A DNA stretch of 64,000 nt from an uncultured Flavobacteriales bacterium (GTDB lineage Bacteria > Bacteroidota > Bacteroidia > Flavobacteriales_G > Salibacteraceae), in the NCBI GenBank assembly GCA_943788725.1, contig CALSRJ010000003.1:434001-498000 (forward strand). Direction: 5' to 3'. This document shows, one piece after another, positions 54,199 through 58,542 of the stretch. Both the position numbers and the translations under genes were made by a program. The stretch's first letter is position 1; each line of letters begins with the position of its first letter. Below the pieces are notes generated by a model, which made no database searches, was not told the DNA's origin, and was given only the letters and a program-made list of their open reading frames with translations.

Positions 54199-54390
54199 AT
54201 GTTGATTATTCCAGTAAAAGAAGGTGAGTCTATTGAAAAGGCTCTTAAGAAGTACAAGAAGAAATTCGAGCGCACTGGCGTGATGAAGCAGCTTCGTAAA
54301 CGTCAGAAGTTCACCAAGCCTTCTATTTTGAATCGTGAGCAAAAGCTTAAGGCGATTTATAAGAATCTTAAGTACGGTACGGAAGAGTAA
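54199..54390 (+). CDS. rpsU: 30S ribosomal protein S21
   Basis: 63 aa basic protein (LIIPVKEGESIEKALKKYKK, RRKQKF-like KRQKFTKPS). Small-subunit protein near the anti-Shine-Dalgarno; in Bacteroidota, where SD use is rare, S21 is thought to help mask it. Own promoter and terminator, so independently tuned. Confidence 0.96.
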   Translation: MLIIPVKEGESIEKALKKYKKKFERTGVMKQLRKRQKFTKPSILNREQKLKAIYKNLKYGTEE

Positions 54391-54413
54391 TCACTCTTTG
54401 CATAACTTTAGGA

Positions 54414-54447
54414 AAAGATCCATCCCAATCGGGTGGATCTTTTTTTA
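54414..54447 (+). terminator. Intrinsic terminator after rpsU
   Basis: AAAGATCCA-T-CCC and GGGTGGATCTTT, a 12-bp stem with one bulged T, loop AATC, then T run. Confidence 0.88.
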
Positions 54448-54464
54448 TTTTGGTGAAGTCGCTC

Positions 54465-55367
54465 ATGGCCATCAAAACCAACATAGAAGACTTCTTGGAT
54501 CACCTGGCTTATCAAAAGAGGTACAGTGTGCATACCGTCAAGGCCTATAGAACAGATCTGCTGGCATTTGCTGACTATGTTGAGGTTTTCTATGAGTCCA
54601 GTGCATTGGAAGAGGTGACGCGAAGGATGATCAGTTCTTTTATCGCCGATCAAGCAGAGATTGGCATTGCCCCTCGATCGATTCACCGGAAGTTGAGTGC
54701 CATTCAATCCTTTTTGAACCATGGGATGAAAGAAGGTTGGGTTGCTCAGAACGCAGCTAAGCATATACAGCGACCCAAGACGTCAAAGCATTTGCCGAAG
54801 GTCATGCGTAGCGAGCAGATTGATGACCTGTTTTCACCCAAACACTTTACCGATGATTTTGAAGGGCGGCGGGACCATGCCTTGCTCGCTGTTTTATATG
54901 CCTGTGGGTTGCGGCGGGATGAGCTGATCGAGTTGAAGGCGGACGATGTTGACTTTTCGGTTGGGCAGCTCAAGGTCTTGGGTAAACGGAATAAGGAGCG
55001 AATTCTTCCGATCGGTGCCTCGGTGGTAAAGTTGCTCCAAGACTATTTGCTTGAACGCAAGGACGTGGAAGGGGTAGCGGAAACATCGCAGGTTTTTGTC
55101 ACGGCCAAAGGGCAGAAAATGTATCCCAACCTTGTTTATACGATCGTAAAAAATTACCTTTCGAAAGTGACGACAATGGAACAGCGCAGTCCGCATGTTC
55201 TTAGACACACATTCGCCACGCACTTATTAAACGAAGGAGCAAACTTGCAGTCGATCAAAGAACTTCTTGGTCATTCCAGCTTAGGCACAACGCAGGTCTA
55301 TACGCATACTTCGTTAGAGAAATTGAAAGACGTTTACAAACAAGCTCATCCAAGGAGCAAAAAATGA
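54465..55367 (+). CDS. xerC: Tyrosine recombinase XerC
   Basis: 300 aa site-specific recombinase that resolves chromosome dimers with XerD at dif near the terminus. N-terminal SAM-like core-binding domain 1-85, catalytic domain with Arg in YACGLRRDELI, the beta-hairpin Lys (LGKRNKERIL), HVLRHTFATH and the nucleophile Tyr in TTQVYTHTS. All five catalytic residues are present. The frame reaches TTG 54450, but that lies in the rpsU terminator U-tract, so ATG 54465 is taken. Its place before hpf is conserved in Bacteroidota; not a mobile-element integrase by context. Confidence 0.93.
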   Translation: MAIKTNIEDFLDHLAYQKRYSVHTVKAYRTDLLAFADYVEVFYESSALEEVTRRMISSFIADQAEIGIAPRSIHRKLSAIQSFLNHGMKEGWVAQNAAKHIQRPKTSKHLPKVMRSEQIDDLFSPKHFTDDFEGRRDHALLAVLYACGLRRDELIELKADDVDFSVGQLKVLGKRNKERILPIGASVVKLLQDYLLERKDVEGVAETSQVFVTAKGQKMYPNLVYTIVKNYLSKVTTMEQRSPHVLRHTFATHLLNEGANLQSIKELLGHSSLGTTQVYTHTSLEKLKDVYKQAHPRSKK

Positions 55368-55373
55368 AGTCAA

Positions 55374-55676
55374 ATGGAAATCAAAGTTCATTCGATCCAC
55401 TTCGACGCGGATCACAAGCTTATCGAATTCATCCAGTCAAGGGTGAGGAAACTAGATATGTTCTATAATGATATCATATCTACGGAGGTCTATTTACGCT
55501 TAGATAAAAACAACGATGAAGGAAACAAAGTCGCAGAGATCCGTTTGAATACTCCGGGAAAAGAAATGTTCGCCAAAAAACAGTGTAAAAGTTTTGAAGA
55601 AGCGACGGATTTGGCAGCTGAAGCATTGAGGCGTCAAGTGAGAAGAAAGAAAGGTAAACTTCAACAAGTGTATTGA
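55374..55676 (+). CDS. hpf: Ribosome hibernation-promoting factor (short form)
   Basis: 100 aa RaiA/HPF domain: MEIKVHSIHFDADHKLIEFI, then a strand with STEVYLRLDKN, and a basic C-terminal helix EALRRQVRRKKGK. Binds the 30S decoding centre in stationary phase. It lacks the long C-terminal dimerisation domain. Starts 6 bp after xerC, same transcript. Confidence 0.92.
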   Translation: MEIKVHSIHFDADHKLIEFIQSRVRKLDMFYNDIISTEVYLRLDKNNDEGNKVAEIRLNTPGKEMFAKKQCKSFEEATDLAAEALRRQVRRKKGKLQQVY

Positions 55677-55727
55677 CCCCCATGAACTGGGCAAAGTAGA
55701 GGGCTTTCGAAAAAAACGAATGTTCTA

Positions 55728-55757
55728 TTGTTTCAATTGAAACTATGTATAAATTTG
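55728..55757 (+). promoter_or_regulatory. Promoter of the tRNA cluster, inside the hpf terminator
   Basis: TTG at 55728-55730, 19-bp spacer, TAAATTTG at 55750-55757. The last base of the -7 box is the first base of the terminator stem, so a transcript starting near 55763 loses the 5' arm and escapes that terminator. Confidence 0.6.
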
Positions 55758-55788
55758 CAGACCTTTTTCGAGGGGGTCTGCATTTTTT
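55757..55788 (+). terminator. Intrinsic terminator after hpf
   Basis: GCAGACC (55757-55763) and GGTCTGC (55775-55781) with an 11-nt loop and T run. Confidence 0.85.
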
Positions 55789-55814
55789 ATGTAGTTCATT
55801 GAAATACATCTTTT

Positions 55815-55888
55815 GCCGGTGTAGCTCAGTTGGCCAGAGCAGCTGATTTGTAATCAGCGGGTCGGGGGTTCGAATCCCTCCACCGGCT
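55815..55888 (+). tRNA. tRNA-Thr (TGT)
   Basis: 74 nt. Acceptor GCCGGTG/CACCGGC, D arm GCTCAGTTGG, anticodon stem GCTGA/TCAGC with loop TTTGTAA (anticodon TGT), T arm GGGGTTCGAATCCCTC. CCA not encoded. Confidence 0.95.
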
Positions 55889-55929
55889 CTTGAGAAAATC
55901 GTGGGGTTTAAAAACCCAGCAGAAGTGTA

Positions 55930-56012
55930 GGGGAGATACTCAAGCGGCCAACGAGGACAGACTGTAAATCTGTTGGTATACACCTTCGCAGGTTCGAATC
56001 CTGCTCTCCCCA
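55930..56012 (+). tRNA. tRNA-Tyr (GTA)
   Basis: 83 nt with a long variable arm (class II). Acceptor GGGGAGA/TCTCCCC, anticodon stem ACAGA/TCTGT with loop CTGTAAA (GTA), T arm GCAGGTTCGAATCCTGC. CCA not encoded. Its last 16 nt are the head of the first copy of the 96-bp tandem array. Confidence 0.95.
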
Positions 56013-56236
56013 CGAAGGCCAAAAGATGAGGAGGCGATGGGCCTTTCTTCTGGAAACAGAAGTCAAGGTGGCTTAGGCAGGATCACGCAAGTAATCCTGC
56101 TCTCCCCACGAAGGCCAAAAGATGAGGAGGCGATGGGCCTTTCTTCTGGAAACAGAAGTCAAGGTGGATCAGGTAGGATAACGCAAGTAATCCTGCTCTC
56201 CCCACGAAGGCCAAAAGATGAGGAGGCGATGGGCCT
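55997..56236 (+). repeat. 96-bp tandem array seeded by the tRNA-Tyr 3' end
   Basis: Copy A 55997-56092, B 56093-56188, C (partial, 48 bp) 56189-56236. Each begins AATCCTGCTCTCCCCAC, i.e. the T-arm 3' strand plus acceptor 3' strand of tRNA-Tyr. Copies A and B are nearly identical until the last 21 bases, where they differ at several positions. Each full copy can fold: AAGGCC/GGCCTT, then CTTCTG-GAAA-CAGAAG, and before the next head GCAGG (or GTAGG) pairing with CCTGC, which recreates a T-arm-like stem with a new loop. The region between tRNA-Tyr and tRNA-Gly otherwise holds no gene. Confidence 0.9.
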
Positions 56237-56260
56237 CCCATTTGAAAGTAGGAGTTAAGT

Positions 56261-56278
56261 CGTGAAGTTCGCTTCACG
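56261..56278 (+). other. UUCG-tetraloop hairpin after the array
   Basis: CGTGAAG-TTCG-CTTCACG, perfect 7-bp stem with a stable tetraloop. A TTTTTT run occurs 12 bases later, so a weak terminator or processing barrier is possible. Confidence 0.5.
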
Positions 56279-56333
56279 TAGATGTATAGTTTTTTGAAAT
56301 AGCGTTCGGTCGTTGACTGGATAGAAAATTTAA

Positions 56334-56406
56334 GCGGGAGTAGCTCAGTTGGTAGAGCATCAGCCTTCCAAGCTGAGGGTCGCGGGTTCGAGTCTCGTCT
56401 CCCGCT
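56334..56406 (+). tRNA. tRNA-Gly (TCC)
   Basis: 73 nt. Acceptor GCGGGAG/CTCCCGC, anticodon stem TCAGC/GCTGA, loop CTTCCAA (TCC), T arm GCGGGTTCGAGTCTCGT. CCA not encoded. Confidence 0.95.
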
Positions 56407-56472
56407 CTTTCTTTTCTGTCGGTGACTGTTTCACTAGGAGAGCTTAGAGGCTCAACCTGGAGAGTTATGCAA

Positions 56473-56544
56473 GCCGATGTAGCTCAGGGGTAGAGCGCTT
56501 CCTTGGTAAGGAAGAGGTCAGGGGTTCAATTCCCCTCATTGGCT
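56473..56544 (+). tRNA. tRNA-Thr (GGT)
   Basis: 72 nt. Acceptor GCCGATG/CATTGGC with one G-T pair, anticodon stem CTTCC/GGAAG, loop TTGGTAA (GGT), T arm GGGGTTCAATTCCCC. CCA not encoded. Its 3' half is repeated in the 118-bp array that follows. Confidence 0.95.
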
Positions 56545-56787
56545 CTCGATAGTTCTTTGATGCGAGTCAGTTAGTGAGGTGCTTTTAGCCCTCTTTTGAG
56601 GTCAGGGGTTCAACCGACCGAAGGGAGCTCACGACCAAAGGGAGTAATTCCCCTCATTGGCTCTCGATAGTTCTTTGATGCGAGTCAGTTAGTGAGGTGC
56701 TTTTAGCCCTCTTTTGAGGTCAGGGGTTCAACCGACCGAAGGGAGCTCACGACCAGAGGGAGTAATTCCCCTCATTTGGCTCGATCG
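56528..56787 (+). repeat. 118-bp tandem array seeded by the tRNA-Thr(GGT) 3' end
   Basis: Copy A 56528-56645, B 56646-56763 (one difference, CCAAAG to CCAGAG), C partial from 56764. Each head AATTCCCCTCATTGGCT is the tRNA 3' end. Near the end of each copy, GAGGTCAGGGGTTCAA (56598-56613) repeats 16 nt of the tRNA variable/T-arm, then a 32-nt insert (CGACCGAAGGGAG-CTCA-CGACCAAAGGGAG, a 13-bp direct repeat) sits where the T-loop would be, then the next head. So each unit rebuilds a tRNA 3' half with an enlarged T-loop. Copy C has an extra T (CATTTGGC). Confidence 0.92.
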
Positions 56788-56811
56788 TTCTTTATAGTAA
56801 AGCAATTTCTC

Positions 56812-56841
56812 CAAGCATTCGAAATGACGAATGAATGCTTG
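56812..56841 (+). promoter_or_regulatory. Hairpin in the tuf leader
   Basis: CAAGCATTC (56812-56820) and GAATGCTTG (56833-56841), perfect 9-bp stem, 12-nt loop, 51 bp before tuf. No U-tract directly after. No clear -7 box was seen between the array and tuf, so tuf may be read from the tRNA promoter. Confidence 0.5.
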
Positions 56842-56891
56842 ATGAATATATAGGTAAGTAATCAATAATTAAACTAAATAGGTAATAAGTC

Positions 56892-58076
56892 ATGGCAAAG
56901 GAAAATTTTGACCGTTCCAAACCACACTTGAACATCGGAACCATCGGTCACGTTGACCACGGTAAGACCACTTTGACTGCTGCTATCACTACAGTATTGG
57001 CAAAGAAAGGTTTCTCTGAGTTGCGTTCATTCGATTCAATCGACAACGCTCCAGAAGAAAAAGAAAGAGGTATCACCATCAACACCTCACACGTAGAATA
57101 CCAAACAGAGTCTCGTCACTACGCTCACGTTGACTGTCCAGGTCACGCTGACTATGTGAAGAACATGGTTACGGGTGCTGCGCAGATGGACGGTGCTATT
57201 CTTGTTGTTGCTGCAACAGATGGACCAATGCCACAGACACGAGAGCACATCCTTCTTGCACGTCAGGTAGGTGTTCCTCAGATCGTTGTATTCATGAACA
57301 AGGTTGACCTTGTTGATGACGAGGAGCTTCTTGAGCTCGTTGAAATGGAGATCCGTGAATTGCTTTCTTTCTACGATTACGATGGCGACAACGCTCCAGT
57401 TATCCAGGGTTCTGCTCTCGGAGGCTTGAACGGTGAGGCTCAGTGGGAAGATCGAATCATGGACTTGATGAATGCAGTTGATAGCTACATTCCACTTCCT
57501 CCACGTGATATCGATAAGGATTTCTTGATGCCAGTGGAAGACGTATTCTCGATCACAGGTCGTGGTACTGTTGCTACTGGACGTATCGAGTCTGGAGTTA
57601 TCAATACAGGTGATTCAGTTGAGATCATTGGTTTCGAAGAGAAACTTACTTCAACCATCACAGGAGTTGAGATGTTCCGTAAGATCCTTGACAGAGGAGA
57701 GGCTGGTGACAACGTTGGTCTTTTGCTTCGAGGTATTGAAAAAGAAGCTATTCGTCGAGGTATGGTAATCTGCAAGCCAGGTTCTGTTAAGCCTCACACG
57801 AAGTTCAAGGCTGAGGTGTACATCTTGAAGAAAGAAGAAGGTGGACGTCACACTCCATTCCACAACAAGTATCGTCCACAGTTCTACTTGCGTACAACTG
57901 ACGTTACTGGTGAGATCATGTTGGGCGAAGGCCGCGAGATGGTAATGCCAGGGGACAACCTTACGATTGAAGTGAATCTGATCGCTCCAGTTGCAATCAA
58001 CCAAGGTCTTAAGTTCGCTATCCGCGAGGGAGGACGTACAGTTGGTGCAGGTCAGGTGACTGAGATCCTTGATTGA
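56892..58076 (+). CDS. tuf: Elongation factor Tu
   Basis: GTPase that brings aminoacyl-tRNA to the ribosome. 394 aa. G1 [10 protein letters not shown], switch I RGITIN, G3 [11 protein letters not shown]4 NKVDLVDD, G5 SAL; domains 2 and 3 complete, with [15 protein letters not shown] at the end. Codon use here is noticeably biased (GGT, CGT, GTT, CCA), fitting a highly expressed gene. Sits between a tRNA cluster and tRNA-Trp/secE, a common bacterial order. Confidence 0.99.
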
Positions 58077-58095
58077 TACTAGTTTAATTATTCAG

Positions 58096-58127
58096 AAGTG
58101 TGGGGCCGAATTTTCGGCTCCACACTT
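58096..58127 (+). terminator. Hairpin after tuf
   Basis: AAGTGTGG-gg-CCGAA and TTCGG-ct-CCACACTT form a long stem with one internal loop, followed by TTCTGTTGTTTT. A terminator with an imperfect U-tract, or a processing site. Confidence 0.6.
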
Positions 58128-58164
58128 TCTGTTGTTTTAGATAAAGGTATAACCGTGCCTCCCC

Positions 58165-58188
58165 AAAACTCCTTGCGAAAGGAGTTTT
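58165..58188 (+). other. Second hairpin between tuf and tRNA-Trp
   Basis: AAAACTCCT-TGCGAA-AGGAGTTTT, perfect 9-bp stem ending in TTTT then AGACCC. Bidirectional terminator or RNA processing signal. Confidence 0.5.
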
Positions 58189-58259
58189 AGACCCTAAAGG
58201 CGGTTGTGAAAAAAGGAATAATGCGGGTTTGGAGAAATCCGAGTTCGGAATTGAAATAA

Positions 58260-58332
58260 ACGGGTGTAGCTCAACTGGTAGAGCACTGGTCTCCAAAACC
58301 AGGGGCTGTGGGTTCGATTCCTACCACCCGTG
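58260..58332 (+). tRNA. tRNA-Trp (CCA)
   Basis: 73 nt. Acceptor ACGGGTG/CACCCGT, anticodon stem CTGGT/ACCAG with loop CTCCAAA (CCA), T arm GTGGGTTCGATTCCTAC. CCA tail not encoded. Typical position just before secE. Confidence 0.95.
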
Positions 58333-58344
58333 CAAATTTGAGAA

Positions 58345-58542
58345 ATGGCAGGAGTTCGTGCATATATAGAAGAAGCGGTAGATGAACTTACCAATAAGGT
58401 AAGCTGGCCTACCTGGTCTGAGCTACAGAGTAGTGGTATCGTGGTGTTGGTTGCAACCTTCATCGTCGCTGCATTGATCTACCTGATGGACCTCGCATTT
58501 GGTCAAGTCATGGACTTGATCTACCTTAAAATATTTGGATAA
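58345..58542 (+). CDS. secE: Preprotein translocase subunit SecE
   Basis: 65 aa, single-TM form: amphipathic helix with the conserved VSWPTWSEL (about 19-27), then TM at about 31-50. Essential clamp of the SecY channel. 12 bp after tRNA-Trp; nusG follows at 1 bp. Confidence 0.95.
   Translation: MAGVRAYIEEAVDELTNKVSWPTWSELQSSGIVVLVATFIVAALIYLMDLAFGQVMDLIYLKIFG

Follow-up and report, generated by a model that had tools for sequence, protein, structure and literature searches.

Here, we analysed the tandem arrays of tRNA ends that follow two tRNA genes in a 64,000-nucleotide stretch of the genome of an uncultured Flavobacteriales bacterium (hereafter, the window), and we propose, with a probability of about 0.52, that these arrays descend from small selfish GIY-YIG elements which home into tRNA and tmRNA genes, either as relics without an ORF or as non-autonomous derivatives, and were multiplied by recombination. 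A full element, as reconstructed from sequence comparison, would consist of a free-standing GIY-YIG gene of about 70-110 codons, located downstream or upstream of an intact tRNA, and a displaced partial copy of the tRNA on the far side of the nuclease gene (the 3′ part downstream, the 5′ part upstream), usually interrupted by a palindrome. A cut by the nuclease within the tRNA gene or close to it would, on repair, give rise to the partial duplication; the nuclease gene would subsequently decay and be deleted, leaving a plugged tRNA fragment, and unequal recombination between identical fragments would generate arrays such as those in the window. A tRNA-homing GIY-YIG element thus appears to be the best-supported source, at moderate confidence, which is slightly lowered because the genome-level correlation with the nuclease was measured for elements of a class-wide “core” type rather than for the insert found in the window.

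The first of the two arrays lies on the forward strand in the spacer between a functional tRNA-Thr(GGT) gene (56473..56545; ARAGORN; RF00005, 71.7 bits) and the EF-Tu gene tuf (56892..58076, same strand). It extends over 56528..56793, overlapping the end of the tRNA gene and continuing 3′ of it, and comprises two 118-nt units and a partial third, as delineated by self-comparison and Tandem Repeats Finder (period 118, 2.3 copies, 96% matches, score 497); the two full units (56528-56645 and 56646-56763) are 99% identical to each other. The variable/T-arm 5′ part of tRNA-Thr, the 16-nt GAGGTCAGGGGTTCAA, is present inside the gene at 56514 and recurs at 56598..56613 and 56716..56731. Each of these two copies is followed by a 32-nt T-loop insert (56614..56645 and 56732..56763) and then by the T-arm 3′ strand and acceptor 3′ strand (AATTCCCCTCATTGGCTC at 56646..56663; CATTTGGCTC, with one extra T, at 56764..56782), all in the orientation of the gene, such that the T-stem and acceptor 3′ strand are rebuilt around the insert and the 16 nt on its 5′ side are native tRNA-Thr sequence, with the T-arm 5′ strand kept. 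The word AATTCCCCTCATT accordingly recurs at 56528, 56646 and 56764. The insert reads C, CGACCGAAGGGAG, CTCA, CGACCAAAGGGAG and T in the first copy, that is, two CGACCRAAGGGAG words, and carries CGACCAGAGGGAG in the second. An earlier note, made from the letters of the window, had described 118-bp units that hold a tRNA 3′ half with an enlarged T-loop, the order of their parts, and an insert of two similar words spaced by CTCA; the units were recovered as described, the order is right, with two extra tails, and the letters of 56614-56645 bear out the make-up of the insert.

The second array that the note had reported at a nearby tRNA gene, with a different sequence, is equally real. It follows the functional tRNA-Tyr(GTA) gene (55930..56013, +; ARAGORN and Rfam), two genes upstream of tRNA-Thr, and consists of 96-nt units (55997..56236, +; self-comparison and Tandem Repeats Finder, 97% matches, score 452) unlike those of the Thr array in sequence. 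Copies of the tRNA-Tyr 3′ end (TAATCCTGCTCTCCCCAC) are found at 56092-56109 and 56188-56205, and the first of them closes a hairpin, GCAGGAT...ATCCTGC, in which the T-loop is replaced. The gene order of the cluster is Thr-Tyr-Gly-Thr-tuf-Trp, and no end copies were found for its tRNA-Gly(TCC) gene (56334..56407, +; ARAGORN). The best named matches of tuf (codons 56892-58073 as query) are from Bacteroidota, namely, Litoribacter (86%) and Algoriphagus (85%), with other orders also at 86%. The length and identity of the Thr and Tyr repeats rule out chance. The earlier note had allowed that the arrays might be assembly artefacts or that no other tRNA might share their design; an artefact is unlikely, given that the assembly is in only 7 contigs and that similar arrays are present in unrelated genomes, and many other tRNAs do have the design.

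Displaced tRNA 3′ ends accompanied by duplicated downstream DNA look like attR, and an Xer-type tyrosine recombinase gene is located upstream of the tRNA cluster (about 54372-55367), so the arrays could be envisaged as att-site scars of tyrosine-recombinase elements with tRNA ends as attB. We consider this very improbable. The Xer motif is also present in 9 of 16 relatives' loci, only one of which (L002) has a tail copy, and thus looks like housekeeping synteny; the core element, in its exact form, has no matches in viral contigs; and copies of tRNA 5′ ends with D-loop inserts are left unexplained. A motif scan detected an integrase in none of 20 loci of 1.5-3 kb with tails or GIY-YIG genes, and a tyrosine-recombinase origin was rejected.

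Copies of tRNA ends recur well beyond the window. We searched for 18-nt copies (at most 3 mismatches) of a tRNA's own end within 400 nt, with other tRNAs masked, the earlier note having proposed a genome-wide look for copied 3′ ends, and found that 8 of the 36 tRNA genes of the source genome have such copies beside them, 3′ ends downstream in six cases (Tyr, Thr, Gly(GCC), Lys, Arg(CCT) and Leu(CAG)) and 5′ ends upstream in two (Arg(TCT) and His). In five genomes with 141 tRNAs, tails are found downstream of 17 tRNAs and heads upstream of 9, involving 25 tRNAs in total, against 1 and 0 in the reversed controls, whereas ends of other tRNA types gave 4 (tail) and 7 (head) matches among 3804 tRNA pairs. 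A looser local-alignment test yielded 18 tails and 11 heads versus 4 and 4 in the reversed controls. A nuclease-free, neutral history, whereby slippage duplicates a tRNA, the copy decays, dispersed palindromes enter its loops and unequal crossing over grows the arrays, would account for the 96-99% identity of the tandem units and for the native T-arm 5′ strand kept in the Thr unit; it does not, however, predict the rule that 3′ ends lie downstream and 5′ ends upstream, and on the whole of the evidence, including that from the core elements discussed below, we regard it as unlikely.

The distribution of the copies is uneven. Among the 19 relatives' loci containing the Thr-tuf cluster (L002-L020), a tail copy is found at L002 only, at tRNA-Tyr, and 5′ copies precede tRNA-Thr in L003. 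The latter locus (G015) displays, upstream of tRNA-Thr(GGT), two short hairpins built from the 5′ acceptor strand of tRNA-Thr with a portion of its D-arm; a complementary stretch of its own closes each hairpin. Given that the relatives' Thr-tuf loci are mostly devoid of copies, these seem to turn over quickly. At EF-Tu loci of 80 named genomes, tail copies occur at 2 of 296 tRNAs, both in one Flavobacterium MAG, and thus the phenomenon is patchy. According to the earlier note, the presence of two such arrays suggests that the mechanism recurs or that a function is selected, and not that an accident happened once. The copies at 8/36 and 25/141 tRNAs, and an element of like design at the tails of 12 tRNA kinds and of tmRNA, rule out a one-off accident and make recurrence of the mechanism very likely. 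The proposal of a selected function did not fare as well: with GIY-YIG genes flanked by partial tRNA copies, the sequences speak for selfish elements rather more than for an RNA with a role in the cell.

These nuclease genes are small and closely associated with tRNAs. In 15 genomes, the PF01541 model produced 116 matches, 83 of them in frames under 200 aa, from which the seven weakest were left out to give a set of 76, with members of tandem arrays counted apart. Within this set, 34 genes lie at most 500 bp from a tRNA or tmRNA, all 34 on the same strand as the latter, and 22, distributed over 14 loci, have a partial copy of that tRNA at their flank, in the arrangement [tRNA]-GIY-[3′ part] or [5′ part]-GIY-[tRNA]. 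The other 42 are more than 500 bp away from any tRNA or tmRNA and include additional units of arrays linked to a tRNA. Of 6 loci with long GIY-YIG ORFs (435-618 aa), none contains a tRNA. Where the locus has no tRNA, only 5 of 30 small GIY-YIG genes have a tRNA fragment within 250 bp; the control, for which some windows came from those very loci, gave 30 of 600. Rfam had no matches in 20 GIY-YIG loci without a tRNA. In an alignment of 19 of the proteins, Tyr, Gly, Arg and His columns are kept in all and a Glu column in all 18 that reach it; we take these to be the catalytic residues. None of six proteins reached the cut-off of an NCBIfam family, and two weakly touch a group I intron endonuclease model. 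In genomes other than the source, the best cross-genome match is at the same tRNA type for 13 of 28 proteins (mean of 1.9 and maximum of 12 in 20,000 shuffles); the lineages are thus target-specific, as those of target-specific homing endonucleases would be.

Three further observations concern these genes. Eight tandem GIY-YIG genes with a spacing of ~364 bp are found in L328 (G110:C34:6991-9748), where the fetched 15.5 kb contain no whole tRNA and the unit that was read has a palindrome-plugged tRNA-Met 3′ part 3′ of the GIY-YIG gene. In three genomes (L339, L343 and L348), small GIY-YIG genes are located 178-420 bp 3′ of tmRNA, with no clear tail copy. The tmRNA-linked protein of G015 is closest to that of G571.

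Several features connect the nuclease genes with the ORF-less copies. The two types of units coexist in single loci, at tRNA-Asp (L290) and tRNA-Arg (L299); downstream of tRNA-Asp, L290 has, in this order and in repeats, a GIY-YIG gene, a tRNA-Asp 3′ part and a core element with its tail. The same side and strand rules apply to both. Nuclease genes with an internal stop are present before a tRNA-Pro (TAG), after a tRNA-Leu (TGA) and after tRNA-Ala of the source genome (TAA; G000:C3:13652-13831, PF01541 pseudogene). At GIY-bearing loci, 18 of 23 displaced copies contain a palindrome whose stem is at least 6 long (in one case, a natural anticodon arm), versus 17% of 2800 random windows. Furthermore, GIY-YIG matches average 5.51 per genome in the 63 of 396 genomes with a core match at E<=1e-4, some of which have partial model matches only, versus 3.47, a difference reached in 0 of 10,000 within-family shuffles and one that the neutral scenario does not predict. 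In a subset of 214 genomes, the within-family p value for this difference is 0.010, and that for the Y1 transposase (PF01797) is 0.42. This genome-level correlation between GIY-YIG genes and the core is not causation and, because the window has another insert, it concerns a sister type. Neither window array contains or adjoins a GIY-YIG gene, and of the 4 PF01541 matches in the source genome one, the tRNA-Ala pseudogene, adjoins a tRNA. Since the window arrays have neither a GIY-YIG gene nor the common insert, we infer, rather than observe, their link to the nuclease. The core word GAGAAGTTTAYCC was absent from the nuclease/copy junctions that were read, which contain other palindromes, so the core could be a separate element.

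The inserts of the source genome belong to several types. At tRNA-Lys, Arg and Leu, GAGAAGTTTAYCC and a hairpin come before the copy; this 16-mer occurs without mismatch three times in the source genome, always at these tRNAs. A GAGTAAT junction is common to the Thr and Gly copies, one copy in L021 and the RtT repeats of E. coli, and other copies have short loops with a TAATC end. The core covariance model found matches at chance level only in the window. The Thr insert word CGACCGAAGGGAG is also present at tRNA-Gly(GCC) and as a dispersed repeat in other genomes, as expected if dispersed palindromes enter tRNA loops neutrally. The pattern GGTTCRAN{10,40}GAGTAATCC had 19 matches in 296 genomes of the phylum versus 4 for the control, among which, judging from the matched letters only, that in the source genome alone looked tRNA-linked.

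The core element itself is widespread in the class. The pattern ACGAGAAGNYTAYCCYGAG matched in 4 of 247 class genomes (control, 0), and two of the four matches adjoin tRNA-Trp and end in its tail; the other two (L237 and L239) lead, by eye, into a Trp-like and an Asn-like tRNA end. Nine of 12 elements went into a covariance model (R1), G015 Lys1, Lys2 and L239 having been left out as misaligned by MAFFT. With a threshold of E<=0.05, this model has matches in 116 of 396 Bacteroidia genomes, often forming arrays (for instance, five copies at about 72 nt in G110), although part of these are partial matches. In 22 of 30 loci found with the model, the element ends in the tail of the upstream tRNA. 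The other eight comprise L256, with tmRNA tails; L251, in a tRNA-Asp array; L252 and L263, with tRNA-like ends by eye; L257 and L264, where a tRNA is present with a short tail only; and L241 and L248, without a tRNA. In L256/L350 (G103:C2), the 3′ end of a tmRNA gene (ARAGORN) reappears twice downstream of it, at +83 and +185, with a core element preceding each copy. The 3-kb loci L237/L241 and L239/L248 have no tRNA gene, and their core elements carry, by eye, tRNA-Trp-like and tRNA-Asn-like tails, respectively, and a terminator.

Altogether, 35 distinct core elements end in the tails of 12 tRNA kinds. Perfect complementarity between the tail and the 5′ arm that immediately precedes GAGAAG extends over at least 5 nt in 19 of the 35, compared with 8.4% of 1066 mismatched controls, and over at least 7 nt in 6 of the 35 (control, 0), whereas the native T-stem strand is present in 4 of the 35. 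Inverted matches to the tail are thus commoner among the 5′ arms of the core than leftovers of the tRNA, unlike in the Thr array of the window, where the 5′ 16 nt are native tRNA sequence. Neither a single core at 12 tRNA types nor the tail-complementary 5′ arm is predicted by neutral decay of duplicated tRNAs. Conversely, core-related hairpins do exist away from tRNAs, as that scenario would have it: none of 19 loci with partial core matches holds a tRNA, four of them (L281-L284) show a hairpin, and a search of phage and plasmid sequences with the core returned short weak matches only, including a short part in Sphingomonas plasmids.

The closest design known to us is found in E. coli. To our knowledge, the tRNA-tail repeats of E. 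coli tyrT are a curiosity without an accepted explanation. In the K-12 tyrV locus (L137), the 19-nt tRNA-Tyr tail occurs three times, 178 nt apart, each as AAGGTTCG-[palindromic insert]-GAGTAATCCTTCC, and RF00391 (RtT RNA, rttR) matches three times, at 134-138 bits. As in the window, the tRNA 3′ ends are in tandem downstream of the gene, the T-arm 5′ sequence is kept, the T-loop holds an insert and the GAGTAAT junction is present; the insert is bordered by TTCGA and GAGTAATCC in RtT and by TTCAA and GAGTAATTCC in the Thr array. Moreover, the RtT word GATGAGAAGCTT resembles GACGAGAAGTTT of the Bacteroidia core. By contrast with RtT, the copies described here are found at many tRNAs and at tmRNA. 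The RF00391 covariance model has no match at E<=1 in positions 55600-58500 of the window and none at E<=0.5 in 20 related loci, and the core model scores the E. coli RtT locus at 12.3 bits (E 0.25). With design and junction words shared but no significant covariance-model link, the window arrays are built like RtT and are not identified as RtT.

The likeness to RtT raises the alternative that tRNA-like tail hairpins in the transcript are selected, with a role in maturing tRNA, in the stringent response or in regulating the gene downstream. The perfect pairing of 5′ arm and tail in 19 of the 35 core elements and the location of the window arrays between genes of the tRNA-tuf cluster are in line with such a role. 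However, the elements are patchy among relatives (one tail copy in 19 loci, with 5′ copies in L003), covariation in the alignment of 9 core sequences is unconvincing (the paired percentage is reached by 24 of 500 shuffles and the covariation score by 71 of 500), and tRNA is the sole Rfam family that reaches the gathering score at the loci examined. We accordingly consider a selected RNA element rather improbable. Preferring the derivation from GIY-YIG elements, we tentatively extend it, at somewhat below even odds, to a group of Bacteroidia-wide parasites of tRNA and tmRNA genes, whose target-specific GIY-YIG homing genes would keep the tRNA whole and shed ORF-less, palindromic, array-forming derivatives with locus-specific tRNA ends, the RtT repeats of E. 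coli being a distant counterpart.

The occurrence of a design like that of E. coli tyrT at many tRNA genes of another phylum, together with the nuclease link, offers a testable origin for such repeats and, if true, would reveal a further means by which selfish DNA can persist at essential tRNA genes while sparing them. It would also call for caution in tRNA annotation and in searches for CRISPR and integron arrays. The t-elements of Photobacterium are tRNA-derived repeats between tRNA genes in a tRNA operon. For RtT, one study describes a covariation-supported helix framing tandem GA (PMC8250186), and another assigns the rtT-like enterobacterial elements to BIMEs (PMC2965389). The Bacteroidia elements resemble the RAYT-linked BIME/REP sequences in being short palindromes and differ from them in that the Y1 transposase (PF01797) is not in excess in element-bearing genomes and that the copies carry locus-specific tRNA ends. 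A closer parallel is provided by SegB, a GIY-YIG homing endonuclease of T-even phages that, according to PMC13096335, often adjoins tRNAs, is said to cut in tRNA-containing DNA and has been shown to drive tandem amplification of a tRNA-Tyr segment; in both cases, the nuclease gene lies beside tRNA genes. Unlike SegB, the elements considered here reside in bacterial chromosomes, encode proteins of ~70-110 aa, and involve a partial copy of the target tRNA at the flank, palindromic plugs and ORF-less arrays. The accessible portion of a GIY-YIG phylogenomic analysis (PMC1564403) gives no account of small tRNA-linked GIY-YIG genes, and among the open-access papers listed by our searches none reports, for Bacteroidetes, repeats linked to tRNAs or chromosomal GIY-YIG genes with such a link.

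Finally, in four loci (L082, L083, L103 and L124, downstream of tRNA-Ser, Arg, Ser and Val, respectively), tail copies are located ~150 nt downstream of the tRNA. By eye, the trailer just 3′ of the tRNA in these loci is complementary to a stretch ~100 nt further on, and this pairing would compete with the terminator stem.
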